DNA of 64,000 nt from Sporosarcina sp. Marseille-Q4063 (lineage in GTDB: Bacteria > Bacillota > Bacilli > Bacillales_A > Planococcaceae), in assembly GCF_018309085.1 (NCBI RefSeq), contig NZ_CP070502.1:2847001-2911000 (forward strand), read 5' to 3'. How positions within the stretch are numbered: the first letter of the stretch is position 1; every line of letters starts with the position of its first letter. Positions 2,941-63,225 of this stretch are shown one piece after another. A model generated the notes under the pieces. It was given only the letters and a program-made list of their open reading frames with translations. It had not been told where the DNA came from and did not search any database. Made by a program: the position numbers and the translations under genes.

Positions 2941-3042
2941 ATTTAGTCGTTTCGAGGTCGACATTGGTCGTTTGGGAGCCGTTACTAGTCGCATCGAGTG
3001 CGTGTATAGTCGTTTGTGAGTCCATTTTAGTCGTTTGCTCAA
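2941..3042. repeat. 21-nt phased array, family 1, five motif copies
   Basis: The core TAGTCGTTT (variants TGGTCGTTT and TAGTCGCAT) begins at 2944, 2965, 2986, 3007 and 3028: four successive intervals of exactly 21 nt. About 9-10 bases between cores differ. The array lies between the SEC-C terminator and the aldehyde dehydrogenase promoter region. One spacer (AGGTCGAC) reappears in the array at 63.1 kb. Short open frames here are by-products of the 21-nt (7-codon) period. Confidence 0.85.
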
Positions 3043-3106
3043 ATTTCCGCTAATTAATTTCCAAATTAAAAAAGGAATTCTAGTAAAGTTGTCGAAATAG
3101 TAAAGT

Positions 3107-3120
3107 TGTAAGCGTTTACA
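3107..3120 (+). promoter_or_regulatory. CcpA-binding cre site upstream of the lysine-catabolic pair
   Basis: TGTAAGCGTTTACA matches the catabolite-responsive element consensus TGWAANCGNTNWCA at every position. It lies 42 bases before the preferred aldehyde dehydrogenase start, where bound CcpA would normally repress during growth on good sugars. Confidence 0.75.
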
Positions 3121-3162
3121 CGTGGATTTTGTAGGATAGAAAAAGAAAGGGGAATGTTTATC

Positions 3163-4641
3163 ATGCAATTGAATAACTACATCGGGGGATCTTGGCAGGA
3201 ATCAGGGGATGCGAAATATACTGCTGTGAAAAACCCGGCAAACGGGGAAGAAGTAGCCAGGGTCAGGTTATCGACTAAAGAAGATGTTAATCAAGCGGTT
3301 GCTGCGGCGAAGAAAGCGCAAAAGGAATGGGCGCTGGTTCCTGCACCCAAACGTGCTGATTTCCTATATGAAATTGGACGGATCATGATCGAGAAAAAAG
3401 AACATTTGGCCCAGGTACTCACAACTGAGATGGGGAAAGTGATTGAAGAGGCCCGTGGTGAAGTGCAAGAAGGCATTGATATGGCTTTTTATATGGCAGG
3501 TGAGGGCAGACGACTTTTCGGGGAAACGGTTCCGTCTGAACTGCAAGATAAATTCGCGATGAGCGTCCGTGCGCCAATTGGTGTCGTAGGACTTATCACG
3601 CCGTGGAATTTTCCAGTAGCGATTGCAACGTGGAAGTCGTTTCCTGCAATCGTCGCAGGCAATACATTCTTATGGAAACCAGCAACAGAAACACCAATGA
3701 TGGCCTATGAAATGGGGCTTATCTTTGATGAAGTCGGTCTTCCAGCAGGCGTCGCGAATATCGTTTTCGGTTCGGGATCAGAAGTTGGGACTGCAATGAT
3801 CGAGCATCCGGATGTTCGTGTTATTTCATTCACAGGCTCGACAGAAACTGGTCGACATGTAGCTGAAACGGGCGGCCGTCATTTGAAAAAAGTGTCGCTT
3901 GAAATGGGCGGGAAGAATGCTGTTATCGTCATGGACGACGCAGATATCGATCTCGCAGTTGAAGGAATTCTTTGGAGCGCATTCGGTACGGCCGGTCAAC
4001 GTTGTACGGCGTGTAGCCGAGTCATCGTGCACAAGGATGTAAAAGAAGAACTAGAACAGAAACTATTGGAGCAAATGAAACATCTGACAATCGGAAATGG
4101 GTTAGATGAATCTGTGAAAATTGGTCCCGTGATTAATGAAAAAGCGCTTGATAAAATTTCAAGCTACGTAGAAATCGGAAAAGATGAAGGCGCGAAGCTG
4201 TTAGTTGGCGGAAATGTATTAACAGACGGCGACTTAGCGAATGGTCATTATTTTGAACCGACTTTATTCACCGATGTGAAATGGGATAGCCGCATTGCGC
4301 AAGAAGAAATATTCGGTCCTGTCGTTTCGCTTATTGAAGTCGGTAGTCTAGAAGAAGCGATCGAAGTAAATAATAGCGTAGTATATGGACTTTCGAGTTC
4401 TATTTTCTCGCGCGATGTCAATAAAATATTCAGAGCGCAACGGGATCTAGACACGGGAATCGTTTATGTGAACGCAGGAACTACAGGCGCTGAAATTCAT
4501 CTGCCTTTCGGCGGGACGAAAGGGACTGGAAATGGACACCGCGATTCAGGGGTTGCCGCACTCGACGTCTTTACAGAGTGGAAAAGTATTTACGTAGACT
4601 TTAGCGGTAAATTGCAACGCGCACAAATTGATAATTCATAA
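3163..4641 (+). CDS. NAD(P)-dependent aldehyde dehydrogenase, probably aminoadipate-semialdehyde type
   Basis: 492-residue ALDH-superfamily enzyme. Catalytic Cys281 is in GQRCTA, general base Glu247 in LEMGGKN and the oxyanion Asn149 in TPWNFP. ATG 3163 is chosen over ATG 3154 because the AAAGGGG ribosome binding site ends one base before 3154 but ten before 3163. The neighbouring saccharopine dehydrogenase-family gene, 67 bases downstream, suggests oxidation of alpha-aminoadipate semialdehyde in lysine degradation; this is inference from context, since ALDH substrate specificity is hard to read from sequence. A perfect cre site upstream predicts carbon catabolite repression. Confidence 0.85.
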   Translation: MQLNNYIGGSWQESGDAKYTAVKNPANGEEVARVRLSTKEDVNQAVAAAKKAQKEWALVPAPKRADFLYEIGRIMIEKKEHLAQVLTTEMGKVIEEARGEVQEGIDMAFYMAGEGRRLFGETVPSELQDKFAMSVRAPIGVVGLITPWNFPVAIATWKSFPAIVAGNTFLWKPATETPMMAYEMGLIFDEVGLPAGVANIVFGSGSEVGTAMIEHPDVRVISFTGSTETGRHVAETGGRHLKKVSLEMGGKNAVIVMDDADIDLAVEGILWSAFGTAGQRCTACSRVIVHKDVKEELEQKLLEQMKHLTIGNGLDESVKIGPVINEKALDKISSYVEIGKDEGAKLLVGGNVLTDGDLANGHYFEPTLFTDVKWDSRIAQEEIFGPVVSLIEVGSLEEAIEVNNSVVYGLSSSIFSRDVNKIFRAQRDLDTGIVYVNAGTTGAEIHLPFGGTKGTGNGHRDSGVAALDVFTEWKSIYVDFSGKLQRAQIDNS

Positions 4642-4708
4642 ATCCATTTTGTGTCGTTTATCATATGGTAGGAATAGGGGTACTAAACAGACGTAAGGGG
4701 ATGGAGAA

Positions 4709-5866
4709 ATGAAAGTAGTCGTTCTAGGTGCAGGTTTAATGGGGAAAGAAACAGCACGCGATTTGGTGAAAAGCGATGATGTGTCGAAAGTGTATTTGGC
4801 GGATTTGAATGTTCGGCAGGCTGAAAACTTTGCGGAAGAGCTCATGTCCGACAAACTAGATATATTGCTTCTTGACGCAACAAATGATGATCAGTTAAGC
4901 GACGTAATCGCACTTGGGGATGTCGTTGTGAACGCGCTATTCTATACATTTAATGAAAAAGTTGCAAGAACAGCCATTGAAAGAGGGGTTCATTCGATTG
5001 ACCTAGGGGGGCATATCGGCGGGGCGACGGAAGCTGTGCTTGCGTTAAAAGAAAAAGCGATTGAAAAAGGGGTTACGATTATCCCGGATTTGGGCGTTGC
5101 ACCAGGGATGATCAACATACTTACGGGTTACGGGGCTGAAAAACTCGATCAGGTTAAATCGATTAAATTATACGTTGGCGGAATACCGGTCAATCCCGAA
5201 CCGCCGTTAAACTATAATGTCGTTTTTTCACTAGAAGGCGTTTTCGACCATTACACGGATTCTTCACATGTGATTCGCGACGGTCAATTGAAAGAAATTG
5301 CATCACTATCTGAAATTGAAATGATCAAATTCGACAAATACGGAGAACTCGAAGCGTTCCACACATCCGGCGGAACATCAACGTTGACGGAATCATTTTC
5401 ACACGTAGATACGTTGGAATATAAAACGATTCGCTATAAAGGCCACGCGGAAAAGTTTCAGCTTCTTGTCGATTTGGGGCTGCTTGGTCGGGATAATGAA
5501 GTGACTGTTGACGGTAAAAAGGTTAAGGTGCGGGATGTTATGAGAGAACAATTATCACCGCAACTTCGACTTGGCGATAAGTCGGATGCGGTACTCCTGC
5601 GGGTAATGGTAAGCGGGGAAAAAGACGGCTTGCCGGTAACGTATGAATACGATTTAGTCACAGAAAAGGATACAACGAAAAATGTAACGGCTATGGCAAG
5701 GGCTACAGCGAATACAATGTCGATTGTCGCGCAAATGATCGGAACTGGTAAGATTTCAAAACGCGGTGTTTATCCGCCTGAAAAAATTGTGCCAGGTGAA
5801 CCTTATATAGAAGAATTGAAAAAACGCGGCGTGATCATCGAAGAGTTCGTGAAGGAATACGCATAA
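4709..5866 (+). CDS. saccharopine dehydrogenase-family oxidoreductase
   Basis: 385 residues. It begins with a Rossmann nucleotide-binding motif ([14 protein letters not shown], residues 3-16) and continues with the saccharopine dehydrogenase C-terminal fold ([33 protein letters not shown]). Saccharopine dehydrogenases interconvert saccharopine with lysine or with glutamate plus aminoadipate semialdehyde. Together with the upstream aldehyde dehydrogenase it probably forms a lysine catabolic operon under the same cre-controlled promoter. AAGGGG lies eight bases upstream of the ATG. Which half-reaction it catalyses cannot be decided here. Confidence 0.85.
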
Positions 5867-5878
5867 GCATAAATATGT

Positions 5879-5910
5879 AGCTGATCCAAAAGTACTTTGG
5901 GTCAGCTTTT
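5879..5910 (+). terminator. terminator of the ALDH/saccharopine dehydrogenase operon
   Basis: Stem AGCTGATCCAAA/TTTGGGTCAGCT with a 5-nt loop, followed by TTTT. Confidence 0.85.
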
Positions 5911-5975
5911 CCAATTCTTGTGTAACTTTTCCTGAACATTCACAGTCTAATCGGAATAAAGGGAAGGTGAATACC

Positions 5976-7222
5976 TTGAAAAAAATACTAGTGATTTTTC
6001 TCGCAATTTTGCTGGTAGTCATGACGGGATGCGGAACAGAAAATAAGTCGGGAGGGCTTGAAATTTCAAAAGACGTAGCGTTTGGTGAAAAAGACTATGA
6101 AAAAATTGTATCGCCCGCTAATGAATTAGGATTCAAACTTCTTAAGGAAGTAGAAGCCGATGAAAACAACAATATTTTCATCTCGCCAACGAGTTTATTC
6201 ATGGCATTATCCATGATTTATAACGGCGCGGATGGCGTCACGAAAGAAGAAATTGCAAAGGTACTTCACTCAGAAGGAATTGACGTAGAAGAATTAAACA
6301 AAGCGAACGCATCAATGATGTCTGTTCTGAATAAAGAAACGGAAGACATTCAATTGAACATCGCAAACTCTATCTGGTTAAATGACAAATTTACATTCCA
6401 AAAAGATTTCGCTAGCGACAATAAGAATTATTTCAATGCGGAAATCGCTGAAATAGATATTGGTGATAGTAAGTCCCCCGAACAGATTAATGATTGGGTG
6501 AAAAAAGCGACAAACGACAAAATCGAGGAAATTGTCGATTCTCCGTTGGATGCTAATTTGGTCGCAGTTCTTATTAACGCAATTTATTTCAAAGGGAGCT
6601 GGACGCATGAGTTTGATAAGAATGAAACAAAAGACCGCCCATTTCACCTCTTGGACGGCTCTGTCAAAAACGTTCCGCTCATGGCCATGACAGAAGAATT
6701 CTCTTATTTGGAAAATGAAAAGTTCCAAGCGATCACATTGCCATACGGTGACGGTGAAATGAGCATGAAAGTGTTTCTTCCAAAGGAAAACTCCAGTCTG
6801 GAAGAATTTAAAAAATGCTGACGAGTGAAAATTGGTCGGCTTGGCAAAAGGAATTTGAAGTGGAAGAAGGAACGATTCTGTTGCCGAAGTTTCAATTGGA
6901 ATTCGAAGCTTCTTTGAATGAAACGCTCAAAAACTTAGGCATGAAGTCAGCTTTTGATGAAAACGCAAATTTCACGAAGATGATAAATGAAAATGAGCAG
7001 GTATTTATTTCAAATGTAAAACAAAAAACATTCATCGATGTAGGTGAAGAGGGAACTGAAGCGGCGGCAGTAACGGGTATTGAAATGGGAATTACATCAG
7101 TGCCGATTAATGAACCATTCATCATGGAAGTGAATCGACCATTCTTTTTTACGATAACGGATGATGAAACCGATACGATTCTATTCATGGGTTCGATTGC
7201 CAATCCTGAGCAAGCGAAGTAA
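5976..7222 (+). pseudogene. serpin-family lipoprotein with a frameshift
   Basis: Two overlapping frames together encode one complete serpin of about 415 residues. The N-terminal part has a lipoprotein signal (KKILVIFLAILLVVMTGC) ending in Cys, and the first frame stops after SSLEEFKK (stop at 6819-6821). The second frame, from about 6815, continues with LTSENW through to PFFFTITDDET. The break is at a run of six A (TTTAAAAAATGC): one more A restores a continuous protein. The reactive-centre hinge EEGTEAAAVT is of the inhibitory type, and counting from it places P1-P1' near Thr-Ser. TTG 5976 is the likely start, with AAGGTGA five bases upstream, rather than GTG 5967. It may be a pseudogene, a sequencing error in the homopolymer, or a slippage-expressed gene. 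Confidence 0.8.
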
Positions 7223-7298
7223 ATATACTATTCTTGCATGAAACTTACCCGTTAATGAATACGTATGTAGAGGTAGGATGTGAAAGGGGATTGGGTCG

Positions 7299-7997: not shown

Positions 7998-8038
7998 AAT
8001 CAATGAATGCGATAGTGTGAGGCCGCTCCTATAAAAGA

Positions 8039-8075
8039 AAGCCCTATTACACGTCAATGACGTATAATAGGGCTT
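8039..8075. terminator. bidirectional terminator between AIM24 and SDR genes
   Basis: Long stem AAGCCCTATTA...TAATAGGGCTT with an inner ACGTCA/TGACGT. T-rich on both sides, especially on the minus strand. Confidence 0.85.
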
Positions 8076-8088
8076 CTTAAAATTCAAC

Positions 8089-9074: not shown

Positions 9075-9087
9075 GATGCATTACGAG

Positions 9088-22611: not shown

Positions 22612-22653
22612 AGCACCTGAACCTTGTGGATATTGAGGTTTAGGTGCTTTTTT
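22612..22653 (+). terminator. terminator of the tRNA-Ala locus
   Basis: Stem AGCACCTGAACCT/AGGTTTAGGTGCT (one G-T pair) and six T. Confidence 0.85.
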
Positions 22654-22680
22654 GATTGATTTTTTTGATGGGTTGAGGTG

Positions 22681-22734
22681 GTTTGGTCGTTTGTGGTGGC
22701 GCTTTAGTCGTTTGCGGACTTGCATTGGTCGTTT
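22681..22734. repeat. 21-nt phased array, family 1, three motif copies
   Basis: TGGTCGTTT, TAGTCGTTT and TGGTCGTTT begin at 22684, 22705 and 22726, i.e. two intervals of exactly 21 nt. It lies just beyond the tRNA terminator and before the amidase gene. Confidence 0.8.
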
Positions 22735-24299: not shown

Positions 24300-24744
24300 C
24301 GTGCGGGAATAAATCGTCCCGCAACGGGAATAACATCACGCGTAACGGGAGCAACCCAACCCGACACGGGAATAAAATCCCGGCCAACCCCGTTGCGGGA
24401 ATAAACTAGCGAGCAACGGGAATAACGTCGCGCGTTACGGGAGCAACCCGACCCGATACGGGAATAAAAAACCCGCCCAACCCGTTGCGGGAATAAATTA
24501 GCGAGCAACGGGAATAACGTCGCGCGTTACGGGAGCAACCCAACCCGATACGGGAATAAAATCCCGGCCAACCCTGTTGCGGGAATAAACTAGCGAGCAA
24601 CAGTAATAACGTCGCGCGTTACGGGAGCAACCCAACCCGATACGGGAATAAAATCCCGGCCAACCCCGTTGCGGGAATAAACTAGCGAGCAACGGTAATA
24701 ACGTCGCGCGTTACGGGAGCAACCCAACCCGATACGGGAATAAA
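24300..24744. repeat. 92-bp higher-order tandem repeat built of 21-nt phased motifs, family 3
   Basis: Twenty copies of the core CGGGAATAA (variants CGGGAGCAA, CGGTAATAA, CAGTAATAA). The GGGAAT positions run 24305, 24326, 24347, 24368, 24397 and so on: 21, 21, 21, then 29 nt, summing to a 92-bp unit. Units begin at about 24300, 24392, 24484, 24576 and 24668. Each position within the unit keeps its own variant (the third is always GGGAGCAAC), so the unit has been duplicated as a block. It lies between the divergent DegV promoter and the dipeptidase terminator. Overlapping small frames inside are artefacts. Confidence 0.9.
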
Positions 24745-24779
24745 AAACAGGTACCTGAATAATGGATTATTCAGGTACC
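24742..24779 (-). terminator. terminator of the M20 dipeptidase gene
   Basis: Perfect 13-bp stem GGTACCTGAATAA/TTATTCAGGTACC with a 4-nt loop and six T on the minus strand. Confidence 0.85.
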
Positions 24780-30076: not shown

Positions 30077-31989
30077 GTCGAGTAGGTGGAAACCTTTCTC
30101 CCTTTCGGGAGATTGTATTTCACACCCCTCACAGAACCGTGCGTGCGCTATTAACGCACACGGCTCTTCCATTTTATCATTCACAGAATATAGCTAATCT
30201 CTTCGCGAAGTTTAAAGATATTAACCTTTACCTTCGGTATTGGGAAAGGAAACATTCGTAGGAACAAGTTGAACTTGTCAAAGTTAAAAGATTTCCTTTG
30301 ACTTCTTCTGTTCATCCATTTGAAAAATAGAATCTTAACCTTGTCTACAAAGTTTCTAACACTTCGGCTATTGTCAGTTATGCAGTAATAGTTAAAGTAA
30401 CCATTCAATGACCGTTGAAGTCGTTTGGCTACAACGTGTATATTCATTGTGCGATTGGCCATAAGCCACTCTTTGCATTCTTTCAATTTAGCTCGCATCT
30501 TCTTCCCACTTGTTTTCCGTTTCACTCGGAATTTACCATGTTTACTTTGACTACAGAAATGCGTGAAGCCTAGAAATTCAAATGTTTCAGGCTTTCCTTT
30601 TCGTTTGCTGTTTCTTACAGCGTATTTCCCGAAGGGAATAATCTTTGTTTTATCCTCCGCAATTTCAAGATTGAATTTCTTCAGTCTCAAGGTTAGGGCA
30701 CGATAAAAATTATTTGCTTCTGTTTCGCTTTGAAAACAGCATACGAAATCGTCCGCATACCTCACCATATATGCTTGTCCTTTACAGGACTTACGCACGG
30801 CTTTCTCAAACCATAAGTCAAGAACATAGTGAAGATAGATGTTTGCGAGAATCGGTGATATGATGCCACCTTGAGGAGTTCCAACATCTGTTTTGTAGAA
30901 ACTTCCGTTTTCCATGTATCCGCCCTTTAGAAATCTTGCAATAATTCCCAATAGGGCTGGGTCGGCAATTCTATGCTTAAGGAATTTCATCAGCCATTCG
31001 TGATTGACGTTGTCAAAGAATCCCTTGATATCCACGTCAACAATAAAGTTCGTATATCGCTCCTCAAGATATACATTAAGTATTTTGAGCGCATCATGAC
31101 AGTTTCGTTTCGGTCGAAACCCAAAAGAACTATCTAGGAAGATTGGTTCATACATGGCATTTAAAATCTTGGCTATCCCTCTTTGAACTATCTTATCTTC
31201 GTACTCGGGAATGCCTAACGGCCTTTTCTTATCTGAACCTGCCTTTGCAATATACGTTCTTCTAACGGGAACGGGCTTGTAGCTTTTCTTTTTCATTCTT
31301 TCTACAAGCTTTGCAATGTTTTCATCCAGATTCTCACCATATTCTTCTTTGGTAACTTTCTGGATTCCTGTCGCTTTTCCTGCCGGAAGTTCATGGTGAC
31401 ATTGTTTAAGGTTTTCTTCGTTGAGTAAATGCACAACTGAAGTAAACTTCATATCCGGTCTCTCTTTAGCTAACTCAGCTATCCTTATCAGTTTTGTTTC
31501 CATTTAGTTGTCTACCTCCGTGTGTAGTAAATGTTTCCCTTTTAAGGACGATAATATGGCGGTTGCCTTTCCTCCATCAGAATTACCCGACTTCATTGGT
31601 ACTACGCAACCATCCGACTTCCTACCCGGCATTTGGTTTCCTTGCTTTTTATCGCTTGAAATAACCATACTCTCCAATTGGAAAGACCAGACAGGATCTC
31701 CCGAGTTGCTGCAACATATCAATGTATGACGTGCCAAGGTCTACGACTCCGAAGGAGTCCCTGCTTTCTTGCCTTTACGATAGCAGAGATATTGCTTTCT
31801 GTGCTCCCGAGCACATCAGCCTCCTTGATTCGGCATTTCGGAGCTCAATTCCTTCAACCGCTTGGCTTTCGGCCCGTCACCTAACTGTCTACGCTTAAAG
31901 ATACAAGTTACCTTGCATCCTTCAAGACTCGCTACGAGTGAATGGCTAATTCTTGCTCGGTGGGAATTCCACCCACTATATGTTGCAAC
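30077..31989 (-). mobile_element. group II intron (retroelement)
   Basis: The minus strand reads: structured 5' domains with no real gene (31989-31504), reverse transcriptase gene (31503-30181), then a clear domain V. Domain V is the GAGCCGT...ACGGTTC stem with a GCG/CGC inner helix, at about 30172-30125. A domain VI hairpin (CTCCC GAAA GGGAG) ends in CCTACTCGAC at about 30077. The 3' end is well supported. The 5' end (GTTGCAAC near 31989) is tentative because it lacks the usual GTGYG. The intron lies inside a copy of the GTTGATT repeat rather than in a gene. Confidence 0.8.
30181..31503 (-). CDS. ltrA: group II intron reverse transcriptase/maturase
   Basis: 440 residues: reverse transcriptase domain (about 40-310) with catalytic Asp158 (VDVDIKGFFDNV) and YADD at 249-252, TPQGGIISP at 209-217, followed by a maturase (GIIM-like) domain at about 340-420. 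It stops without an HNH endonuclease domain, so mobility would rely on single-stranded targets or replication forks. All RT motifs are intact and the frame is open, so the intron may be active. GGAGGT lies ten bases before the ATG. Confidence 0.92.
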   Translation of the reverse strand: METKLIRIAELAKERPDMKFTSVVHLLNEENLKQCHHELPAGKATGIQKVTKEEYGENLDENIAKLVERMKKKSYKPVPVRRTYIAKAGSDKKRPLGIPEYEDKIVQRGIAKILNAMYEPIFLDSSFGFRPKRNCHDALKILNVYLEERYTNFIVDVDIKGFFDNVNHEWLMKFLKHRIADPALLGIIARFLKGGYMENGSFYKTDVGTPQGGIISPILANIYLHYVLDLWFEKAVRKSCKGQAYMVRYADDFVCCFQSETEANNFYRALTLRLKKFNLEIAEDKTKIIPFGKYAVRNSKRKGKPETFEFLGFTHFCSQSKHGKFRVKRKTSGKKMRAKLKECKEWLMANRTMNIHVVAKRLQRSLNGYFNYYCITDNSRSVRNFVDKVKILFFKWMNRRSQRKSFNFDKFNLFLRMFPFPIPKVKVNIFKLREEISYIL

Positions 31990-32079: not shown

Positions 32080-32205
32080 CAACTTGCAAGCAAAATCATT
32101 TGAGTGCAAGCAAACATCATGTGAGTGCAATCAAAACACTTTCAAGTGCATGCAAAACCCATCGGAGTGCAAGCAAACCACATATAAGTGCAAGCAAATT
32201 AGAAA
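32080..32205. repeat. 21-nt phased array, family 2, six motif copies
   Basis: The core AGTGCAAGCAAA starts (at TGCAAG) at 32085, 32105, 32126, 32147, 32168 and 32189: intervals 20, 21, 21, 21, 21. The left end carries the module AGTCCCAACTTGCAAGC, the reverse complement of the right-end module of the arrays at 36.9 and 56.1 kb. Located between the intron-bearing repeat and the terminator at 32222. Confidence 0.88.
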
Positions 32206-36889: not shown

Positions 36890-37010
36890 TAATTTGCTTG
36901 CACTTACACCATTTTTGGTTGCAATAAATATGGGTTTGCTTGCACCAACATGCCATTTGCTTGCACTCACCCCAAGTTTCCTTGCACTCAAAAGATTTTG
37001 CTTGCAAGTC
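36890..37010. repeat. 21-nt phased array, family 2, six motif copies
   Basis: CTTGCA cores (one GTTGCA) at 36897, 36918, 36939, 36960, 36981 and 37001: intervals 21, 21, 21, 21, 20. The right end is the module ATTTTGCTTGCAAGTCGGGAC. It occupies the gap between the sigma gene and topB; bases 36785-36890 hold no other feature except TCCGT-A-ACGGA near 36810. Confidence 0.88.
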
Positions 37011-43882: not shown

Positions 43883-44025
43883 GAACTAGGAAGTAAATAA
43901 TGTTGTCTTTTCCGCGTGAACATTTTATAATAAAGGAAAGTTGTCATGCACATGTTTAAGTAAATAAACATTTTTAATGTCCTTTCCATAAATACAAATG
44001 ACCGCGAATGAAAGGGGTAATTAAT

Positions 44026-44976
44026 TTGAAGAAAATAATTGTCACTGGAGCGCTTGGACAAATAGGTTCCGAGCTAATCACTAAGCTTCGATCAGAATAC
44101 GGTGTGGATAATGTATTAGCTACCGATATTCGTCATCCAAATACTGGTGCAGCCGCCCGAGGCCCATTTGAAATCTTAGATGTCACAGATGCAAAAAAAA
44201 TGCACACGCTCGCAAATGATTTCGGAGCAGACACCATGATGCATATGGCGGCTCTTTTATCTGCCAAAGCAGAAGAAAATCCGATGCTCGCATGGAATTT
44301 AAATATGGGCGGACTCATGAATGCGCTCGAAGTCTCCCGCGAATTAAATTTGCAGTTTTTCACACCAAGCTCAATCGGCGCATTCGGTCCATCAACTCCG
44401 AAAAAAGGAACCCCTCAAGACACCTTACAACGCCCAACAACAATGTACGGAGTCAATAAAGTAGCGGGCGAGTTGCTATGTGATTATTATTTCAATAAAT
44501 ACGGACTTGATACTCGAGGTGTCAGATTCCCAGGACTAATTTCCAACGTAGCCAAACCGGGCGGGGGAACGACAGACTATGCGGTCGATATTTATTATAA
44601 AGCGCTAGAAGAAGGAAAATATACATCATACATCGCAGAAGGAACGTATATGGACATGATGTACATGCCCGACGCGCTTCAAGCAATCGTTGATTTACTG
44701 GAAGCAGACCCAGCGAAACTCGTTCACCGCAACGCATTTAATGTCACAGCGATGAGTTTTGAACCATCTGAAATCGCAGCATCCATCAAAAAACAAATAC
44801 CAGATTTCGAAATAGCGTATGAAGTCGATCCAATCCGCCAAGCAATCGCAGACAGCTGGCCAGACGCCATCGACCCATCCACCGCAATCAAAGAATGGGG
44901 CTTCAAAGCAGCATATAACCTGGATAAAATGACAATCGACATGTTAGAGAAATTAAAAATAAAACTAAACAAATAA
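44026..44976 (+). CDS. tdh: L-threonine 3-dehydrogenase, SDR type
   Basis: 316 residues of the extended short-chain dehydrogenase/epimerase fold: NAD motif TGALGQIG (about 7-14) and catalytic TMYGVNK (Tyr-x-x-x-Lys) after [11 protein letters not shown]. It matches short-chain-type threonine dehydrogenases, distinct from the zinc-dependent Tdh of E. coli. It should convert L-threonine to 2-amino-3-ketobutyrate for Kbl. TTG 44026, eight bases after AAAGGGG, gives the family start MKKIIVTGA. Confidence 0.85.
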
Positions 44977-44982
44977 TAGTGA

Positions 44983-45013
44983 AAAACCGTGAGCAAACCA
45001 CTCACGGTTTTTT
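44983..45013. terminator. bidirectional terminator after tdh
   Basis: AAAACCGTGAG/CTCACGGTTTT stem; T-run on both strands. Confidence 0.85.
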
Positions 45014-45031: not shown

Positions 45032-45150
45032 CCGAAACGACCAAAGTAGCCGCTCAAACGACTAAAGAGACTTCCGAAACGACTAAAGCAGTGTGCAAAC
45101 GACTAAAGAGGCTATCGAAACGACTATAGCTGGTTGCCAAACGACTAAAG
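45032..45150. repeat. 21-nt phased array, family 1, six motif copies
   Basis: AAACGACTAAAG cores (variants AAACGACCAAAG and AAACGACTATAG) begin at 45035, 45056, 45077, 45097, 45118 and 45139: intervals 21, 21, 20, 21, 21. It lies in the convergent gap between the tdh terminator and the EamA stop codon. Confidence 0.88.
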
Positions 45151-54194: not shown

Positions 54195-54622
54195 CATACT
54201 TGACGAGGTTGCACAGTTTGAGGGAAATATTTCACTTGGCCTTCAAACTCCGCATAATCAAAGTAAATCATCGGGAAAAGAAATTGATGATCCGTAGATG
54301 CTTCATGGATAATGACGTGATCACGGCCTGCCGCTTCTACATAACCAGTGATATTCCTCACGTTCAAGGCCTCTCCAACTGTATGTGCAAATGAAAAGTG
54401 AAAAGTTCCTGGTTCACCGATATTTAATCTTAAAATGTTTTCAATGTACGATTGTTCCCCCATGGGAAGTCCAGCTGGTATTGTACCGCTCGGCATTGAT
54501 ACCGGTGGCGGAACCATTGGCTGTTGCATCGGTTGCATCGGTTGCATCGGTTGCATCTGCTGCATATTCGGGTTTTGCATTTTCGGTTGTTGAAAATTTG
54601 GGTTCCAATAATATTGGACCAT
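54194..54622 (-). CDS. gerQ: spore coat protein GerQ
   Basis: 142 residues. The N-terminal 50 are Gln/Met/Pro rich with a QPM-type tandem (MQPMQPMQPMQQPM), followed by the conserved GerQ domain (GEQSYIENILRLNIGEPGTFHFSFAHT...GYVEAAGRDHVIIHE). GerQ is an inner-coat protein cross-linked by transglutaminase and is required to place the cortex lytic enzyme CwlJ. The cwlJ gene lies 56 bases upstream on the same strand, so the two partners form an operon. Confidence 0.9.
   Translation of the reverse strand: MVQYYWNPNFQQPKMQNPNMQQMQPMQPMQPMQQPMVPPPVSMPSGTIPAGLPMGEQSYIENILRLNIGEPGTFHFSFAHTVGEALNVRNITGYVEAAGRDHVIIHEASTDHQFLFPMIYFDYAEFEGQVKYFPQTVQPRQV
54516..54556. repeat. 9-bp tandem repeat inside gerQ
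   Basis: GGTTGCATC repeated about four times, encoding the QPM tract. Slippage here would change tract length in steps of three residues without a frameshift. Confidence 0.8.
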
Positions 54623-56073: not shown

Positions 56074-56197
56074 ATTTGCTTGCACTCATAAGAGGTTTGC
56101 TTGCACTTCGACGTTCTTTCCTTACAGTTGACAGTGTTTTGCTTGCACTTATCCATCATTTCCTTGCACTCAAAAGAATTTGCTTGCAAGTCGGGAC
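56074..56197. repeat. 21-nt phased array, family 2, six motif copies
   Basis: CTTGCA cores (one CTTACA) at 56079, 56100, 56121, 56142, 56163 and 56183: intervals 21, 21, 21, 21, 20. It ends with TTTGCTTGCAAGTCGGGAC, as at 37010. It follows the metallopeptidase stop within 25 bases, with no terminator between. Confidence 0.88.
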
Positions 56198-56277
56198 CTT
56201 GTACCCGTAAGAAAACCGATGTTCAAACAACTTTTTAGAAGAAAACACTACATAACTACTCCTTTATAATGAAATTA

Positions 56278-56523
56278 GTCGATTGGAGTGGAGGGGGACG
56301 ACTCCCGCGGAATTAGCGAGACAGCCGAGACCCTGGACTGAGCGTAGCGAAAGCCGTGACGAAGAACGGCTTTTGCGACCGAAAAGCGAAGCGTTTGGGA
56401 GCACATAGATTTACAGGCTGTATAATTTTGCAAAGGCCGCAAAATTATACAAATCGAACTCTTCGTTGTTCGATTGGCTCGGCGCTCGCCCGCAGGAAAG
56501 CGGCCCCCGCAACGGAAATCAAC
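56278..56523 (+). repeat. GTTGATT palindromic element, copy D (246 bp, enlarged)
   Basis: Starts GTCGATTGGAGTGGAG and ends CAACGGAAATCAAC. GGGGG in the left arm faces CCCCC in the right. The centre is enlarged by inserted hairpins: AGCCGT/ACGGCT with TTTT (about 56350-56372), and a perfect 13-bp stem TGTATAATTTTGC/GCAAAATTATACA (56419-56451). This copy looks like a host for further insertion. Confidence 0.75.
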
Positions 56524-58506: not shown

Positions 58507-58522
58507 TCAGGAGAAATGAATA

Positions 58523-59362
58523 ATGTCATCATATGAATCTTTTTTACGCATCCCCGAATGGCGATTTATGGACGAATCGATTAGCGCCCAGAAACGTTCC
58601 GCGCTCGAATCATTTGCCGCGGATGATACGCTTTGCCATCTCGTCGGACAACAGATGAGCATTCCAGCGGTTCGAACGTGGGTTCACGATAAAACAATCG
58701 TCCTCGGCATTCAGGATCATCGGCTTCCGAACATTTCGGAAGCCACTACAGTATTAGAAAACGCAGGTTATCAATCAATCGTCCGAAATTCTGGCGGTCT
58801 AGCAGTCGTCTTGGACGATGGGGTTTTAAATATCTCGATGATTCTTTCAGAGCAGAACACATCGATTGATATTCCGACAGGTTATGAAATTATGCTTGAA
58901 TTCGTAAAACTGCTATTCCCAGAAGCGGAGGGTCGAATTAAAGCCTATGAAATTGTCGGATCTTATTGTCCGGGTTCCTATGATCTTAGTATCGATGGAT
59001 TAAAATTTGCGGGGATTTCACAACGGAGACTTCGCCAAGGAATCGCCGTTCAAGTGTACTTATGTATTGAAGGAAGTGGCGGGGAACGCGCGGAGTTAAT
59101 TCGCGAACTATACGACGTGGGGATAAACGGCCAAGCAACGAAGTTTGTCTATCCAACCATAAAGCCGGAAGTAATGGCATCCCTTTCTGAACTGCTTAAT
59201 CTCGAACTGACAGTGAGCGATGTAAATATGCGTGTTCAAATGTTATTGCGCTCACTCGCTGAAAATGTTGCGACAGGCGGTTTTCATGACGATGAAATGG
59301 ACATGTACGCATTTTATTTAAACCGGGTCGTCGAACGCAATAAAAAAATGCTTATAAAATAA
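58523..59362 (+). CDS. lipL: octanoyl-[GcvH]:protein N-octanoyltransferase
   Basis: 279 residues of the LplA/LipB/LipL fold: RNSGGLAVVLDDGVLNISMIL, the acyl-accepting Cys in GSYCPGSYDLSIDGLKFAGISQRR and the Lys in the same block. LipL moves the octanoyl group from GcvH to E2 subunits of oxo-acid dehydrogenases. Order pta-lipL is conserved in B. subtilis. AGGAG precedes the ATG. Confidence 0.9.
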   Translation: MSSYESFLRIPEWRFMDESISAQKRSALESFAADDTLCHLVGQQMSIPAVRTWVHDKTIVLGIQDHRLPNISEATTVLENAGYQSIVRNSGGLAVVLDDGVLNISMILSEQNTSIDIPTGYEIMLEFVKLLFPEAEGRIKAYEIVGSYCPGSYDLSIDGLKFAGISQRRLRQGIAVQVYLCIEGSGGERAELIRELYDVGINGQATKFVYPTIKPEVMASLSELLNLELTVSDVNMRVQMLLRSLAENVATGGFHDDEMDMYAFYLNRVVERNKKMLIK

Positions 59363-59373
59363 TTGCAAATAAA

Positions 59374-59409
59374 AAGCCACCAATCAAAAGCTGATTGGTG
59401 GTTCTTTTG
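59374..59409. terminator. bidirectional terminator between lipL and rsfA
   Basis: GCCACCAATCA/TGATTGGTGGT stem; the 3' half lies inside the last codons of rsfA. Confidence 0.8.
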
Positions 59410-60019
59410 ATACGAGATTTCCGTTCTGTTCCATTTGGAAAACAGGCGCGGTACGTTCATCTTCGCCGTCAAGCGTGACAAGTCTGCGAGCGCGGTTCAT
59501 GATTTGAACAAATGCTTCATAATCAGAGCGAAGCGTTTCATTCTCGTTTTTAAGCTTGTTGATTTCCTTTTCAAGCTGTTTAATCGTGTCATTTGCTGCT
59601 TTTGCTGTTTGCCTCCAACGGAACGATTCGCTATCTCCCGCACCCGAATGATGAAGGCGGACAAGGTAAGCGATGACTGTATCTAGCGTTAACGCAGATA
59701 GTGGAACCGCCACCCTATTATCCTCGTTGCTACCTTGTGTAGGTGTGTATAATTGTTGACCGCGTCTCTTAAAATCTTTACCAAGCATACGAATCGCTTG
59801 TTTTCTTTCCTTTTTGGCATCCTCGAGCTCTACTTCATAATCGCGTCGAACCACTGCGTTCCATCTAAATCCGCAAGCAGCTGCCGTACGATTTAAAGCA
59901 TCGCCGACTTCTTCAAAGGCGCTTAATTGAGTACTGCCTTCTCGAACGTGTCGAAGAACCGTCTCTGCCAATAAAACATCATTTTCTTCCATCCAAGCAT
60001 CCTGCCTAACTTTCACCAT
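59384..60019 (-). CDS. rsfA: RsfA-family forespore transcription regulator
   Basis: 211 residues: Myb/SANT-like N-terminal DNA-binding domain (about 1-60; DAWMEENDVLLAETVLRHVREG, CGFRWNAVVRRDYE), a middle linker and a coiled coil (about 130-170). It matches RsfA/YwfN, a regulator of sigma-F genes in the forespore. ATG 60019, seven bases after GGAGG, is chosen over ATG 60043. Confidence 0.85.
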   Translation of the reverse strand: MVKVRQDAWMEENDVLLAETVLRHVREGSTQLSAFEEVGDALNRTAAACGFRWNAVVRRDYEVELEDAKKERKQAIRMLGKDFKRRGQQLYTPTQGSNEDNRVAVPLSALTLDTVIAYLVRLHHSGAGDSESFRWRQTAKAANDTIKQLEKEINKLKNENETLRSDYEAFVQIMNRARRLVTLDGEDERTAPVFQMEQNGNLVSKEPPISF

Positions 60020-60059
60020 AGTAGTGCCTCCTGCCATGTTCATAATCTCTTTCTATCGA

Positions 60060-60090
60060 TAGTGTGCACATCCAATCACTATTTTATTCA
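60060..60090 (-). promoter_or_regulatory. candidate sigma-F/sigma-G promoter of rsfA
   Basis: Minus-strand TGAATA (60090-60085), 18-base spacer, CACACTA (60066-60060); close to the forespore pattern with the same spacing as the SASP promoter. Known rsfA is expressed in the forespore. Confidence 0.5.
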
Positions 60091-60189
60091 TTCATTGTAT
60101 CCGCATTTAAAAGTTTCTTATTTCGTTTCACGCTTTCAGAGCCGTCATTTTTTGAGTACAATAGACTTAGGGAGTTACGGAGGTGCAAA

Positions 60190-61488
60190 ATGGACTATAA
60201 AAATGAAAAGTTAATCGAAGAAAAAGTGTTTAAAGATCCAGTTCATCGCTATATTCATGTCAACGACAAAGTCATCTGGGATGTAATCGGAACACGTGAA
60301 TTCCAGCGCCTCAGACGAATCAAACAACTAGGGACAACCTATCTTGTGTTCCACGGGGCCGAACATAGTCGTTTTCATCATTCGCTCGGCGTCTATGAAA
60401 TCGTTCGTCGCATTGTAGACGACGGTTTTAGCGGCCGACCGGAATGGGACGATGAAGAACGTCTCGTCACGCTTTGCGCGGCACTATTACATGATTTGGG
60501 ACATGGTCCATATTCACACGCCTTTGAAAATGTCTTCGATCTCGATCATGAAAAATTCACGCAAGCAATTATCCTCGGCGAAACTGAAGTGAATGCGGTA
60601 CTCAGAAAAGTATCACCAGAATTTCCGCAAAAAATTGCCGATGTCATCGGAAAAACATATCCCGACAAATTAGTCGTTAGTTTAATCTCGAGTCAAATCG
60701 ATGCCGATCGAATGGATTATTTACAACGAGACGCTTATTTTACAGGCGTATCCTACGGTCATTTCGACATGGAAAGAATTTTGCGCGTGATGCGTCCGTC
60801 AGAAGACCAAGCCGTCGTGAAATCCAGCGGAATGCATGCGGTGGAAGACTATATCATGAGCCGCTACCAAATGTATTGGCAAGTCTATTTTCATCCTGTT
60901 TCAAGAAGCGCGGAAGTTATTTTAACAAAAATACTCCACCGGGCTAAATATTTATATGAAACTGGTTATGAATTCAAGCAACAGCCTGTCCACTTTCAAA
61001 CGTTTTTCGATAAAACATTACGATTGGAAGACTATATCGCACTAGATGAAGGCGTGATGACGACTTATTTTCAAATGTGGACGAAAGAATCGGACGAGGT
61101 ACTCGCCGATTTAAGTAATCGTTTCCTCAACCGGCGCCTCTTTCAATACGTTGAATTTAATCCGGCCGTTGAATATGAAAAAATGCATGAAATCAAAGAA
61201 CTTTTTATAGAAGCGGGAATCGATCCAGAATATTATCTCGTGGTAGACTCATCATCAGATTTACCGTATGATTTTTATCGACCGGGGGAAGAGAATGAAC
61301 GACTTCCAATATTTTTGAAAATGCCAAACGGCGAATTAAGCGAAATATCTCGTTCATCGGACATCGTCGACGCAATTTCAGGAAAACGCAGAACCGATCA
61401 CAAACTTTATTTTCCAGAGGATTTATTAGAAGCGGGGAAAGCAGACAATCCGTTGTATCATAAAATTTTACAGATGTTGAAAAACTAG
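60190..61488 (+). CDS. ywfO: HD-domain phosphohydrolase YwfO
   Basis: 432 residues: HD-domain metal motifs in HSRFHHSLGVYEIV, ALLHDLGHGPYSHAFE and SSQIDADRMDYLQRDA, closely matching YwfO and dGTPase-like proteins. Probable nucleotide triphosphate hydrolase. ATG 60190 after GGAGGTG is certain; the frame extends to 60064 without a ribosome binding site. Fourteen bases before ywgA. Confidence 0.88.
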   Translation: MDYKNEKLIEEKVFKDPVHRYIHVNDKVIWDVIGTREFQRLRRIKQLGTTYLVFHGAEHSRFHHSLGVYEIVRRIVDDGFSGRPEWDDEERLVTLCAALLHDLGHGPYSHAFENVFDLDHEKFTQAIILGETEVNAVLRKVSPEFPQKIADVIGKTYPDKLVVSLISSQIDADRMDYLQRDAYFTGVSYGHFDMERILRVMRPSEDQAVVKSSGMHAVEDYIMSRYQMYWQVYFHPVSRSAEVILTKILHRAKYLYETGYEFKQQPVHFQTFFDKTLRLEDYIALDEGVMTTYFQMWTKESDEVLADLSNRFLNRRLFQYVEFNPAVEYEKMHEIKELFIEAGIDPEYYLVVDSSSDLPYDFYRPGEENERLPIFLKMPNGELSEISRSSDIVDAISGKRRTDHKLYFPEDLLEAGKADNPLYHKILQMLKN

Positions 61489-61502
61489 AAAGGGTGGACA
61501 AC

Positions 61503-62006
61503 TTGTTGCAAGAACACGCAAAAATCGTGCAATTTATTTCATTGGCGGAAGAAGTCACCGGACGAAAAAAGCTCCAGAAAATGATTTACATCGCAAAAAA
61601 GATGGATTTCCCTTTCTCAGAGAAATTCGAACTACATATGTATGGACCCTATTCAGAAGAATTAACCTTACGCGTGGAAGAATTATGCGAAATGGGTTTT
61701 CTGAACGAACAACGCATCGACAAAGGATCCTATGTGCAATACCAATACGATGTATCCGGCGAGGGACAACGGTTTCTAGAAACAGCTGAAAAAGTTCCCG
61801 ACAGCCTTTCGAATTTCATTCAAAAAATGCAAGCGAAAAGTTCAAGATTTCTAGAGCTGGTCTCAACCCTTTTATATTTCGACCACTTCGAGAAAAAAGA
61901 ACAAATTGAAAAAGTTCAAGTCGTCAAAAACAAATTGAAGTTTTCCGAAGCGGAAATTGAAGACGCATTTGTATTTTTAAATGACCTAGAATTAATTTCG
62001 AATTAA
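61503..62006 (+). CDS. ywgA: YwgA-family protein
   Basis: 167 residues: VTGRKKLQKMIYIAKKMDFPFSEKFELHMYGPYSEEL at the N-terminus and a helical C-terminus. YwgA family, function unknown, always near ywfO. TTG 61503 gives MLQEHAKIV and has AAGGGTGG five bases upstream; GTG 61494 lies inside that motif. Confidence 0.8.
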   Translation: MLQEHAKIVQFISLAEEVTGRKKLQKMIYIAKKMDFPFSEKFELHMYGPYSEELTLRVEELCEMGFLNEQRIDKGSYVQYQYDVSGEGQRFLETAEKVPDSLSNFIQKMQAKSSRFLELVSTLLYFDHFEKKEQIEKVQVVKNKLKFSEAEIEDAFVFLNDLELISN

Positions 62007-62007
62007 A

Positions 62008-62052
62008 AAAAGCTGGCTACCATTGACATAACGTCGTGGAGCCAGCTTTTTT
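62008..62052. terminator. bidirectional terminator between ywgA and ywhB
   Basis: AAAAGCTGGCT/AGCCAGCTTTT stem with T-runs on both strands. Confidence 0.85.
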
Positions 62053-62066
62053 ATATTATGAATAAA

Positions 62067-62252
62067 TCACTCATCAACAGGGCGTTTCCCAGCTACGGCG
62101 TAATCATTCTTTGACATTTCTTCAATGAAAACAACAACATTCTCAGCAGGCGCACCTGTCGTTTCTGAAACAGCTTCAGTTACTTTTTCACATAGCGCAC
62201 GTTTTTGTTCATCAGTACGACCTTCAAACATTTTCACAGTTACATATGGCAT
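62067..62252 (-). CDS. ywhB: 4-oxalocrotonate tautomerase-family protein
   Basis: 61 residues, Pro1 exposed after Met removal (MPYVTVKMFEGRTDEQKRAL), Arg in GRT, and FIEEMSKNDYAVAG. The tautomerase family acts through Pro1; the natural substrate of YwhB is not known. Position between ywgA and ywhD matches B. subtilis. Confidence 0.85.
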   Translation of the reverse strand: MPYVTVKMFEGRTDEQKRALCEKVTEAVSETTGAPAENVVVFIEEMSKNDYAVAGKRPVDE

Positions 62253-62318
62253 TTTCTTTTCCCTCCTTCAAAGTATCCAGTATACTAATGATATTATCAG
62301 AGTTGGAGGGGTAAACAA

Positions 62319-62834
62319 ATGGGAAATGAACAAAAACCAAAACCGAAAATGGGTTTTACAATCATAAAAGATGATCCGACTGACGGTCACAAAGGATTCG
62401 GAATTGGATCATTGTCATTGGAAAATGTATCGCCGGTCATTATCGACGTTGAAGAAGAAGTAGCAACGATTGAAATTGGCGCAATGCATGCGAGAAGCCC
62501 TCTCGAACGAGGCATTCGATTTTTACCAACACGTGAAGAGTCCGCAAACGGAAAAGCGTACTGGCTAATTTGGGTGACCATTGATTATAAAGAAGAAGGC
62601 CCTTATTATTCCGGCGTGACGGCATGTGAAATGGTGATTGATCGTTCCATCCGCCGAGGTTATAAAAATTTTGTGGATCATATGAATCGCATGGACCGCT
62701 CCATGAAAGGGAAAATCATGGTCGATGACATGGACGACACATCCAAACGCGTACTAGCAGAATTTTTAAAAGAACATAACGAAGAAATATGGAATCGCAG
62801 CAACGCTGAATTACATGATGGGTTGCGCGTATAA
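62319..62834 (+). CDS. ywhD: YwhD-family protein
   Basis: 171 residues: GFTIIKDDPTDGHKGFGIGSLSLENVSPVIID, EIGAMHARSPLERGIRFLP, GPYYSGVTACEMVIDRSIRRGYKNFVDHM, matching YwhD. Function unknown. TTGGAGG lies upstream of the ATG. The 200 bases after it (62835-63033) contain nothing I can support. Confidence 0.85.
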   Translation: MGNEQKPKPKMGFTIIKDDPTDGHKGFGIGSLSLENVSPVIIDVEEEVATIEIGAMHARSPLERGIRFLPTREESANGKAYWLIWVTIDYKEEGPYYSGVTACEMVIDRSIRRGYKNFVDHMNRMDRSMKGKIMVDDMDDTSKRVLAEFLKEHNEEIWNRSNAELHDGLRV

Positions 62835-63033
62835 TCGACAAAGTTATGAACGAAATATGACGTTTTTAAAGTAACTTTCGTCAGGATAGTTGAATGTCCG
62901 GATAAAAGTCAGTACACTTATTAATAGCTTGCGAATGTAAGCTAGGACTACCGATTTAGTTCCCGCGAATGCATGTAGAACGTCAAACCAACCCAAGCCT
63001 GATTTTCTATTTGTGTAAGCGGTTCTAATCGGT

Positions 63034-63079
63034 AAAAAAAGCTTCCTATCCCTTGATATCAAGGAGAGGAAGCTTTTTT
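63034..63079. terminator. bidirectional terminator
   Basis: AAAAAAGCTTCCT/AGGAAGCTTTTTT stem with an inner CCTTGATATCAAGG palindrome; seven T on the minus strand, for the PBP gene. Confidence 0.85.
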
Positions 63080-63087
63080 AATTTGCA

Positions 63088-63225
63088 ATCCGACCAATAA
63101 TCATTGAGAAACGACCAAAGTCGACCTTGAAACGACCAAACCGACACTCCAAACGACTATAGTTACTTTAAAGCGACTAAACCATCCCCCTAAACGACCA
63201 ATACAGCAAACTAAACGACCAAAGC
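63088..63225. repeat. 21-nt phased array, family 1, seven motif copies
   Basis: CGACC/CGACT cores at 63091, 63112, 63133, 63154, 63174, 63195 and 63216: intervals 21, 21, 21, 20, 21, 21; mostly within AAACGACCAAA or AAACGACTA. It lies in the 3' untranslated part of the PBP gene, before its terminator. The spacer GTCGACCTTG is shared with the array at 2.9 kb. Confidence 0.88.

Follow-up and report, generated by a model that had tools for sequence, protein, structure and literature searches.

Two-turn-phased motif arrays at operon ends in Sporosarcina as candidate platforms for a cooperatively binding protein

Computational comparison of a 64,000-nt stretch of a Sporosarcina chromosome (the window) with the rest of the same genome (G000) and with its congeners revealed arrays of short motifs that are phased at two helical turns, conserved in their cores only, restricted in size, consistent in position, polar with respect to replication in one family, and matched, in the corresponding gaps of some congeners, by arrays built on different cores. 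From this combination we infer that the arrays are double-stranded DNA platforms for a putative cooperatively binding protein at operon ends, a reading to which we give a probability of about 0.6. A putative sequence-specific protein would bind one core of roughly 10-12 bp per second helical turn, and the bound molecules would sit side by side on one face of the DNA, probably cooperatively, with about six sites per platform being usual in this clade. Such platforms, which would tend to adjoin transcription terminators on their far side and to lie mostly in 3' gaps, may mark or close operon ends, either as a backup roadblock to read-through or as an anchor for chromosome organisation, and the replication polarity of family 2 suggests that the bound complex would be directional. 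The observation made in the initial annotation of the window is confirmed, and its interpretation is partly supported.

All eight arrays described there, with cores recurring at 21 nt and occasionally at 20, were found at their places in the window, and they belong to three families of differing sequence in G000. Four are of family 1. The array at 2941..3036 carries the core AAACGACTAAAG on the minus strand at 2941, 2962, 3004 and 3025, with a degenerate unit at 2983; a hairpin was seen by eye before it (about 2887-2924), and the syntenic gap of the congener G012 holds about six units. The array at 22681..22734 (minus strand; cores at 22681, 22702 and 22723) lies downstream of a tRNA, separated from it by a hairpin noted by eye at about 22612-22654, with about five units at the corresponding place in G012. 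The array at 45035..45150 (plus strand) consists of six cores spaced 21, 21, 20, 21 and 21 nt and begins 59 nt past the stop codon of the plus-strand gene 44008..44976, beyond its terminator; this gene, epimerase-like by eye, served as the anchor for locating the matching 3' gap in congeners, some of which carry phased arrays with other cores there. The terminator-like hairpin between the two (44982..45012) was assigned to the minus strand by the terminator scan, its plus-strand T run being recognised by eye. The fourth array, at 63109..63224 (plus strand), has six cores with the same spacing (21, 21, 20, 21, 21) behind a hairpin seen by eye at about 63036-63080, and a single unit of it remains in G012. 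The three family 2 arrays have six cores each: 32083..32198 (plus strand), with a first gap of 20 nt, all others of 21 and the leader GTCCCAA-CTTGCAAGCAAA; 36893..37008 (minus strand), with the leader GTCCCGA-CTTGCAAGCAAA; and 56075..56190 (minus strand), in a convergent gap. Three, four and five units, respectively, occupy the same places in G012. The family 3 array (24304..24745, plus strand) has CGGGAATAA cores at 21, 21, 21 and 29 nt, which form a 92-nt higher-order unit present in 4.8 copies with a 92% match; none was found in the syntenic gap of G012.

In the stretches analysed, the distance between neighbouring cores deviated by no more than 1 nt from a multiple of 20.8 nt in 175/177 cases for family 2 and 236/253 for family 1. 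Family 1 gaps in G000 measured 21 nt in 101 of 113 cases, 20 nt in 11 and 19 nt in one, and family 2 gaps measured 21 nt in 119 of 147 and 20 nt in 28; the 20-nt gap came first in 24 of the 28 family 2 arrays of at least five units in G000. The genome-wide occurrence that had been anticipated was borne out by 120 family 2 core pairs 21 nt apart (at most two mismatches; 0 in a reversed-pattern control) and 93 family 1 pairs (at most three mismatches; 0 in the control), and neither random spacing elsewhere nor confinement to the window, the two outcomes tested as contrary to the proposal, was seen. A lag scan of the window picked up six of the eight arrays, each with a lag of 21, 41 or 42, missing those at 2.94 and 63.1 kb, and gave no array in one block-shuffled control. 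Applied to 10% of the chromosome, sampled evenly, the same scan returned 13 periodic matches: four with one of these three lags, including one that looks coding, and one or two each at 13, 18, 27, 28, 29, 30 and 60. Family 3 occurs at seven places in the genome, each with the 21, 21, 21, 29 (92-nt) pattern when missed units are allowed for, and keeps to a constant repeat size of 20-21 nt only in part. Because 29 nt is a non-integer number of helical turns, its motifs are not all on one face; the one-face register proposed in the initial annotation holds for families 1 and 2, with their 20.8-nt multiples, and fails for family 3. In congener G034, blocks of about five units recur every 102 or 123 nt. 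These blocks, the off-register step at every fourth unit of family 3 and the non-polar behaviour of family 1 were counted against the platform reading.

Cores and spacers differ markedly in how they evolve. Within G000, the 12-nt core positions are 69-100% one letter, except for a T/C position of family 1, whereas positions in the 8-9-nt spacers hold 0.03-0.57 bit. Across 36 array pairs in syntenic stretches, cores were 0.85-0.95 identical, a measurement biased towards conserved cores because the arrays had been picked by their cores in both species, and spacers were 0.615-0.668 identical, against 0.637 and 0.641 at 4-fold sites in the same comparison. Between species, then, cores are conserved while spacers drift like synonymous sites. 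Before orthologs were counted, six G000 arrays of family 1 that had more than one possible partner were removed, and where one syntenic stretch held two arrays the better match was kept. Non-orthologous cores were 0.81-0.92 identical, orthologous ones being only slightly more alike; gaps and coding sequence inflate the flank identity (0.75-0.85), which did not serve as the neutral yardstick. Since conservation covers the letters of the cores and the lengths of the spacers, but not the letters of the spacers, a protein that counts helical turns, as had been suggested, is the most economical reading. Array size peaks at six units in both families, with variances of 2.06 for family 1 (n=57) and 1.05 for family 2 (n=64) against 9.56 and 7.23 expected from a geometric distribution.

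These data bear directly on the possibility that the arrays are neutral or selfish satellites: replication slippage and unequal recombination would generate them, copying would disperse them, 3' gaps would tolerate them, and the 20-21-nt step would be of mutational origin. Duplications of whole units and of two units are visible (family 1 spacer identity is 0.494 at lag 2, 0.339 at lag 1 and 0.331 in random pairs), copy number differs between species by whole units, the window array of family 3 is missing from the G012 gap, and the long near-identical arrays of G009 and G016, with some congeners reaching 18-24 units, look like ordinary satellite growth. Slippage, however, would not fix 12 letters while the nine between them drift at the 4-fold rate, gives no narrow size peak at six and is not obviously biased to one replication strand as family 2 is. 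We therefore regard satellites as an unlikely account of the whole, one that nevertheless carries some weight, and family 3 and the long arrays may be satellites all the same.

Retention was judged from the window and two protein-anchored gaps alone, the stretches of other relatives having been chosen around matches. Six of the seven family 1 and 2 arrays of the window keep 3-7 units in the matching G012 gap, which was not chosen by core, and the seventh keeps a single unit. Behind the two anchor genes, phased arrays with other cores were present in 8/27 and 6/27 congeners against 6/120 background gaps (p=0.0007 and p=0.009 for the first and second gap), with no array detected in the remaining 19/27 and 21/27; a fuller background that includes arrays hidden by the gene caller gave 14/54 pooled against 11/125 (p=0.004). 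Five of the eight first-gap arrays have one core in common and are therefore not independent. The protein-anchored matches examined were 30 of 32 for the first gap and 30 of 39 for the second, whose set is without G009, G024, G006, G019 and G061, all of which have a first-gap array; short arrays in G020 (first gap) and G025 (second gap) fell under the detection threshold. An off-phase control was positive in 3/120 background gaps, 1/27 first gaps and 0/27 second gaps, the first-gap positive being G013, which has a phased array too. The phased arrays with different cores behind these genes may reflect replacement of the core while the array persists, and the exclusion of one ancestral satellite in the initial annotation is not supported.

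Families 1 and 2 are common to G000, G003 and G012, a core like that of family 2 is present in G034, and family 2 also occurs in an Arthrobacter-labelled record that looks like Sporosarcina. Of 21 stretches from a wider search, eight belong to S. jiandibaonis, two to the Arthrobacter-labelled record and 11 are unrelated, eight of these with two-unit matches only and three with 6, 7 and 10 units (L245, L236 and L234; Chitinophagaceae twice and Thermoanaerobaculia). A shared frame, YG-N3-AWA, fits most congener cores as well as families 1 and 3, and its status is suggestive only: it was noticed and then counted on the same arrays. Of 34 arrays, 23 have a forward match in half or more of their units, three more match on the other strand and eight fail, whereas shuffled units match in 1-18%. 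Among the eight failures, two appear by eye to have been cut so that the motif or the period is split (G064; G009, twice). Across the genus, this post hoc frame makes it doubtful that the cores share no sequence, although family 2 does not fit it.

The arrays are intergenic and biased towards gene 3' ends, as had been proposed. No family 2 array overlaps a predicted gene (0/31 in G000, 0/22 in G012, 0/11 in G003), and family 1 overlaps are few (2/27, 1/19 and 0/11, respectively). The G000 sets of 27 family 1 and 31 family 2 arrays comprise those with three recognisable cores in succession, which leaves out the array at 2941. The upstream gene is co-directional with 25/31 family 2 and 20/27 family 1 arrays in G000, and with such a gene a predicted terminator lies between stop codon and array in 25/40 cases for family 1 and 35/55 for family 2; control gaps have a predicted terminator in 158/329, which means that its presence is not special by itself. 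Convergent gaps account for 21 of 53 gaps with an array and 65 of 517 without (p=3.6e-6). A dif-like pattern of the Bacillus type had no match, and the terminus was consequently placed by GC skew alone, at 0.2-0.4 Mb, roughly opposite dnaA at 2.373 Mb. Relative to replication, 28/31 family 2 arrays in G000 are on the leading strand, as are, by local GC skew and with ambiguous arrays excluded, 20/21 in G012, 10/10 in G003 and 9/11 places with family 2-like arrays in G034. Family 1 polarity was not significant (18/27 in G000, p=0.12; 7/16 in G012; 6/11 in G003), so a strand bias relative to origin and terminus, as had been suggested for testing, marks family 2 strongly but not family 1 as a whole. 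Upstream-gene orientation alone was rejected as the cause of family 2 polarity: in G000, 28/31 arrays follow the leading strand against 25/31 that follow the upstream gene, and 20/22 arrays of the two families together are on the leading strand in convergent gaps, where the flanking genes favour neither orientation. A bolder extension of the platform reading is a genus-wide boundary system, in which a fast-evolving DNA-binding protein or small family would read motif rows behind terminators, block leaky RNA polymerase and let forks pass in one direction, like TTF-I on Sal boxes, the motif drifting per lineage with all arrays following and the platform staying; we consider this speculative and improbable.

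The co-directional upstream genes also fit a function in RNA, in which the arrays would form part of transcripts, either at 3' ends or as small RNAs, and serve for instance as unstructured sites for Rho or another RNA-binding protein. The cores look A/C-rich by eye in the direction of the upstream gene, and PMC8161180, like PMC8625621, describes 52-nt repeats of B. coagulans as transcribed. The arrays, however, lie past the terminator, which is predicted before the array in 60/95 cases, inside it in 0/95 (both families) and within 120 nt downstream on the same strand in 6/95. In a flexible RNA, a strict spacing of two helical turns would serve no evident purpose, the arrays show no sign of RNA structure, and in tandem gaps of G000 the array opposes both neighbouring genes in 5/14 cases for family 1 and 3/17 for family 2, all of which makes an RNA-level role a poor prospect.

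Only a slim chance is left for a purely physical property, whereby phased tracts would bend DNA, or a site of about 130 bp would be wrapped by gyrase or a nucleoid protein, without sequence-specific reading. Family 1 is predicted to be strongly bent (end-to-end/contour ratio 0.775 against 0.941 for random intergenic DNA; wedge angles reportedly those of Bolshoy 1991), and adding 3 nt per spacer abolishes the bend (0.950); six units make about 126 bp, and the 3' ends of genes are sites of positive supercoiling, which fits a gyrase-type reading of array position. Family 2 (0.940), however, shows no bending beyond that of random intergenic DNA, and a bend needs no single exact 12-letter core; intrinsic bending was rejected as a common property, being predicted for family 1 only. 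Very improbable is a mobile-element origin, as dispersed insertion copies or a plasmid iteron array, for although family 2 copies with their polar start (GTCCCGA-CTTGCAAGCAAA, first gap 20) resemble one element of about 150 bp, and direct repeats two turns apart recall plasmid iterons, the arrays stay at syntenic places between species, blastn with one family 1 and one family 2 array of the window gave 0 matches in 72,556 plasmid and 50,697 phage records, and viral contigs held 0 stretches fitting the family 1 pattern and two fitting that of family 2, of two units each with no further array.

The platform reading can be set beside several known systems. REP/BIME elements of enterobacteria are likewise short, dispersed and intergenic, lie 3' of genes with several units per place, and bind gyrase; REP units are folding palindromes, whereas the arrays here are direct repeats, with folding energies on the two strands near those of spacer-shuffled controls (mean z 0.15 and -0.12 for family 1, n=46; -0.24 and 0.03 for family 2, n=50), and hairpin-forming units of the REP type were rejected. 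CRISPR arrays also alternate conserved units with variable spacers, yet their repeats are near-identical, each spacer is unique and about 30 nt long, and cas genes accompany them; the 12-nt cores, 8-9-nt spacers drifting like neutral sites and dozens of arrays found here do not fit this pattern. Plasmid iterons share the few direct repeats about two turns apart, with conserved core and variable linker, and are bound cooperatively by Rep, but they lie in the replicon beside the rep gene, whereas dozens of chromosomal arrays occur here and the two that were searched lack a plasmid match. Sal-box arrays are rows of motifs directly behind eukaryotic rRNA genes, polar with respect to both transcription and replication, where bound TTF-I halts RNA polymerase and blocks replication forks that come from one side; the placement behind a gene 3' end is alike and the polarity agrees for family 2 only, whereas the present arrays are bacterial, adjoin dozens of genes and are non-polar in family 1.

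Closest is the class of Bacillus tandem repeats, 20-21 nt long, whose length is constant and whose sequence varies, described by Subirana and Messeguer in 2021 (PMC8161180), which removes the initial claim that no published description exists, since the class, the remark on two helical turns and the idea of a polymerising nucleoid protein all appear there. Repeat length, non-coding position and several families per genome agree with our arrays. The Bacillus repeats of a species carry a short characteristic sequence, and a short core is present here too; the Bacillus families are species-specific, with sharing noted between B. simplex and B. muralis, whereas families 1 and 2 cross species in G000, G003 and G012. 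Relative to the main text of PMC8161180, the terminator position, polarity, six-unit peak, core/spacer evolution and other cores at the same place appear to be new. Since its publication in 2020-2021 this class has had no function attached to it, and the comparisons reported here recast a curiosity of repeat length as a testable binding-site problem, defined by letters, spacing, site number, terminator position and the occurrence of different motifs in one gap; if a protein that reads the arrays exists, they would constitute a new operon-end or chromosome-organising element in Gram-positive bacteria.

All eight arrays that the initial annotation attributed to the window were recovered as described when the sequence was re-read, and the arrangement occurred genome-wide in G000, the genome containing the window (chromosome of 3,978,257 bp), where 93 core pairs of family 1 and 120 of family 2 were spaced at 21 nt (reversed control, 0). 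A core-pair search of 61 whole genomes, 37 of them from the genus Sporosarcina, also revealed family 2 pairs in the congener G012 (73), in G034 (69), and in G003 (Sporosarcina jiandibaonis LAM9210; 47), the remaining genomes holding 0–6 each, approximately the control level. Family 1 pairs were found in G003 (95) and G012 (47), with 0–1 in the remainder. Family 2 arrays were additionally present in a record labelled Arthrobacter beigongshangensis (L252, NZ_JADHDX010000008.1; L254, NZ_JADHDX010000010.1), with a G+C content of 0.41–0.45 in the two stretches and Sporosarcina-like proteins. One of these arrays is flanked by the same two acyl-CoA-dehydrogenase-like genes as a G000 array at 2.935 Mb, and the record looks like Sporosarcina because tblastx identity to G000 at this shared place was 83–90%; by its sequence, it is probably a wrongly labelled Sporosarcina or a mixed assembly. 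Stretches from unrelated bacteria (L234 and L245, Chitinophagaceae; L236, Thermoanaerobaculia) carried 6–10 units of a motif resembling GTGCAAGCAA, spaced at 21 nt; these may be coding repeats or members of this array class.

The family 1 core (approximately AAACGACYAWWR) and the family 2 core (approximately AGTGCAAGCAAA) both alternate with spacers of 8–9 nt. In stretches from G000, G012, and G003, the distance from one core to the next, counted up to 130 nt, fell within 1 nt of k × 20.8 in 236 of 253 cases for family 1 and in 175 of 177 for family 2, and mean core spacings were 20.88 and 20.80 nt, respectively. This 20.8-nt register bears out the proposed single-face phasing for families 1 and 2, but the rule is broken in family 3, since its spacing was 21, 21, 21, 29 at each of seven places, with missed units allowed for. 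Requiring at least three cores per array, we counted 27 arrays of family 1 and 31 of family 2 in the G000 stretches examined, where core positions were 69–100% one letter, except for a T/C position in family 1, and spacer positions carried 0.03–0.57 bit. Across the three genomes, six units was the commonest size in both families, and the size variance was 2.06 for family 1 and 1.05 for family 2 (geometric expectation, 9.56 and 7.23). Spacer identity within family 1 arrays was 0.494 at lag 2 and 0.465 at lag 4, with 0.339 and 0.360 at odd lags (random, 0.331), and duplications of 41–42 nt were discernible; family 1 arrays therefore seem, from these sequence patterns, to grow by unit pairs. The even-lag effect was weak in family 2 (0.353 at lag 2, 0.275 at lag 1; random, 0.314). 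Family 2 arrays have a polar start, GTCCCGA-CTTGCAAGCAAA, and a first gap of 20 nt in 24/28 cases. By eye, a second dispersed repeat, ACTCCAATCAACTAATTTCATTATAAA with a GC-rich part GATTCCGCGGGAGTCGCCGCCCTCC, lies 5' of this leader in about 11 of the 31 G000 arrays (e.g., window 56200–56330).

The intergenic position of the arrays was supported in G000, where predicted genes overlapped 0/31 family 2 and 2/27 family 1 arrays. Convergent gaps were enriched among those with an array (21/53 vs 65/517 without). Among 95 arrays with a co-directional upstream gene in the three genomes, a predicted terminator lay between the stop codon and the array in 60, inside the array in none, and within 120 nt downstream in 6; control gaps had one at any place in 158 of 329. 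The region from 2.78 to 3.02 Mb of G000 (6% of the chromosome, including the window) held 15/27 family 1 and 8/31 family 2 arrays of the stretches examined. With dnaA at 2.373 Mb, strand bias was evident in family 2, whose core was on the leading strand in 28/31 G000 arrays, but not in family 1 overall (18/27); genes in the same stretches were leading in 625/792. By local GC skew, the family 2 core was leading in 20/21 arrays in G012 and 10/10 in G003, with one ambiguous in each; in G034 it was leading at 9/11 places, two being ambiguous, and three more stretches had no array of three units. These counts include partly orthologous arrays and are not independent. Family 1 was leading in 7/16 arrays in G012 and 6/11 in G003, without overall polarity, and in 10/11 within G000 convergent gaps.

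Orthologous arrays were compared in 36 pairs from G012 or G003 stretches matching on both flanks, six ambiguous family 1 arrays having been dropped beforehand. With whole units aligned and placed to favour spacers, core identity was 0.85–0.95 and spacer identity 0.615–0.668; fourfold third positions of neighbouring genes gave 0.637 (G003) and 0.641 (G012), and non-orthologous arrays 0.81–0.92 for cores and 0.43–0.53 for spacers. Reading the G012 gaps that match all eight window arrays, which avoids selection by core, showed that, of the seven arrays belonging to family 1 or 2, six were kept with 3–7 units; the family 1 array at 63.1 kb was reduced to a single unit, and the family 3 array was absent from its corresponding gap. 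One kept array adjoins what looks like an insertion or a contig break (G012:C2:1-126, end of G012:C1), which splits the terminator beside the array matching window 45.0 kb (family 1). A group II intron (window 30077–31969, minus strand; Rfam matches 31737–31969 and 30077–30168) with a large ORF (30181–31503) neighbours the family 2 array at 32083; the matching G012 gap, only about 130 nt, has the array and no intron.

A lag scan covered 320 kb from five congeners with at most scattered family 1 or 2 matches. In three of the five it detected arrays, 11 by our own count, in which different cores recur at 20 or 21 nt; it detected no phased array in G032 (60 kb) or G023 (20 kb). We also compared the 3' gaps of two genes followed by a family 1 array in G000; these gaps were picked for arrays in G000, G003, and G012, which were left out of the counts. 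Behind the gene at 44008–44976 (plus strand), 8/27 other congeners had a phased array, with four cores other than family 1, one of them shared by five of the eight arrays; behind a symporter-like gene, 6/27 did, with several cores, mostly different again. The same detection found phased arrays in 6/120 background gaps (p = 0.0007 and p = 0.009, respectively); including five arrays hidden by the gene caller (11/125), the pooled comparison was 14/54 vs 11/125 (p = 0.004). In 18/21 arrays listed at these gaps, at least half of the units matched YG-N3-AWA when read in the upstream gene's direction; noticed and counted on the same arrays, this match is only a lead toward a shared frame.

Slippage alone, an RNA function, and bending alone each leave part of the array pattern unexplained. 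A cooperatively binding candidate protein would impose a conserved core of one turn and a free next turn of fixed length, and a fixed face and bounded site number would also be expected from it. The putative bound complex would sit where RNA polymerase leaks past a terminator and convergent transcription meets; for its role, which we infer only from this place, candidate effects are stopping polymerase, fork tolerance in one direction, or anchoring the chromosome. Family 3 and the long congener arrays may be ordinary satellites grown from the same units. In G034 (L340, G034:C1:188162-188560; L341; L350), family 2-like cores are grouped at about five units to a block, and the blocks recur every 102 or 123 nt; this higher-order arrangement is comparable to the 92-nt unit of family 3. 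At window 54523–54565, a predicted gene contains 4.8 copies of a 9-nt tandem repeat, GTTGCATCG.

Among the literature matches listed, nothing pertinent concerned Sporosarcina or Planococcaceae repeats, or phased repeats in connection with terminators and strand bias. The repeat class itself, of which the initial annotation knew no published description, is already in print (Subirana and Messeguer 2021, PMC8161180). Judging from excerpts of that paper, the anatomy, position, polarity, and evolution of the arrays, and those with other cores, may be new to print. A related paper, as excerpted, deals with the transcription of 52-nt repeats (PMC8625621). In the excerpts of PMC8161180, the 20–21-nt tandem repeats of Bacillus are constant in size and variable in sequence, with several families per genome, each with a short characteristic sequence; the authors note that the length equals two helical turns and propose for these repeats either small RNAs or a protein polymerising on the nucleoid.
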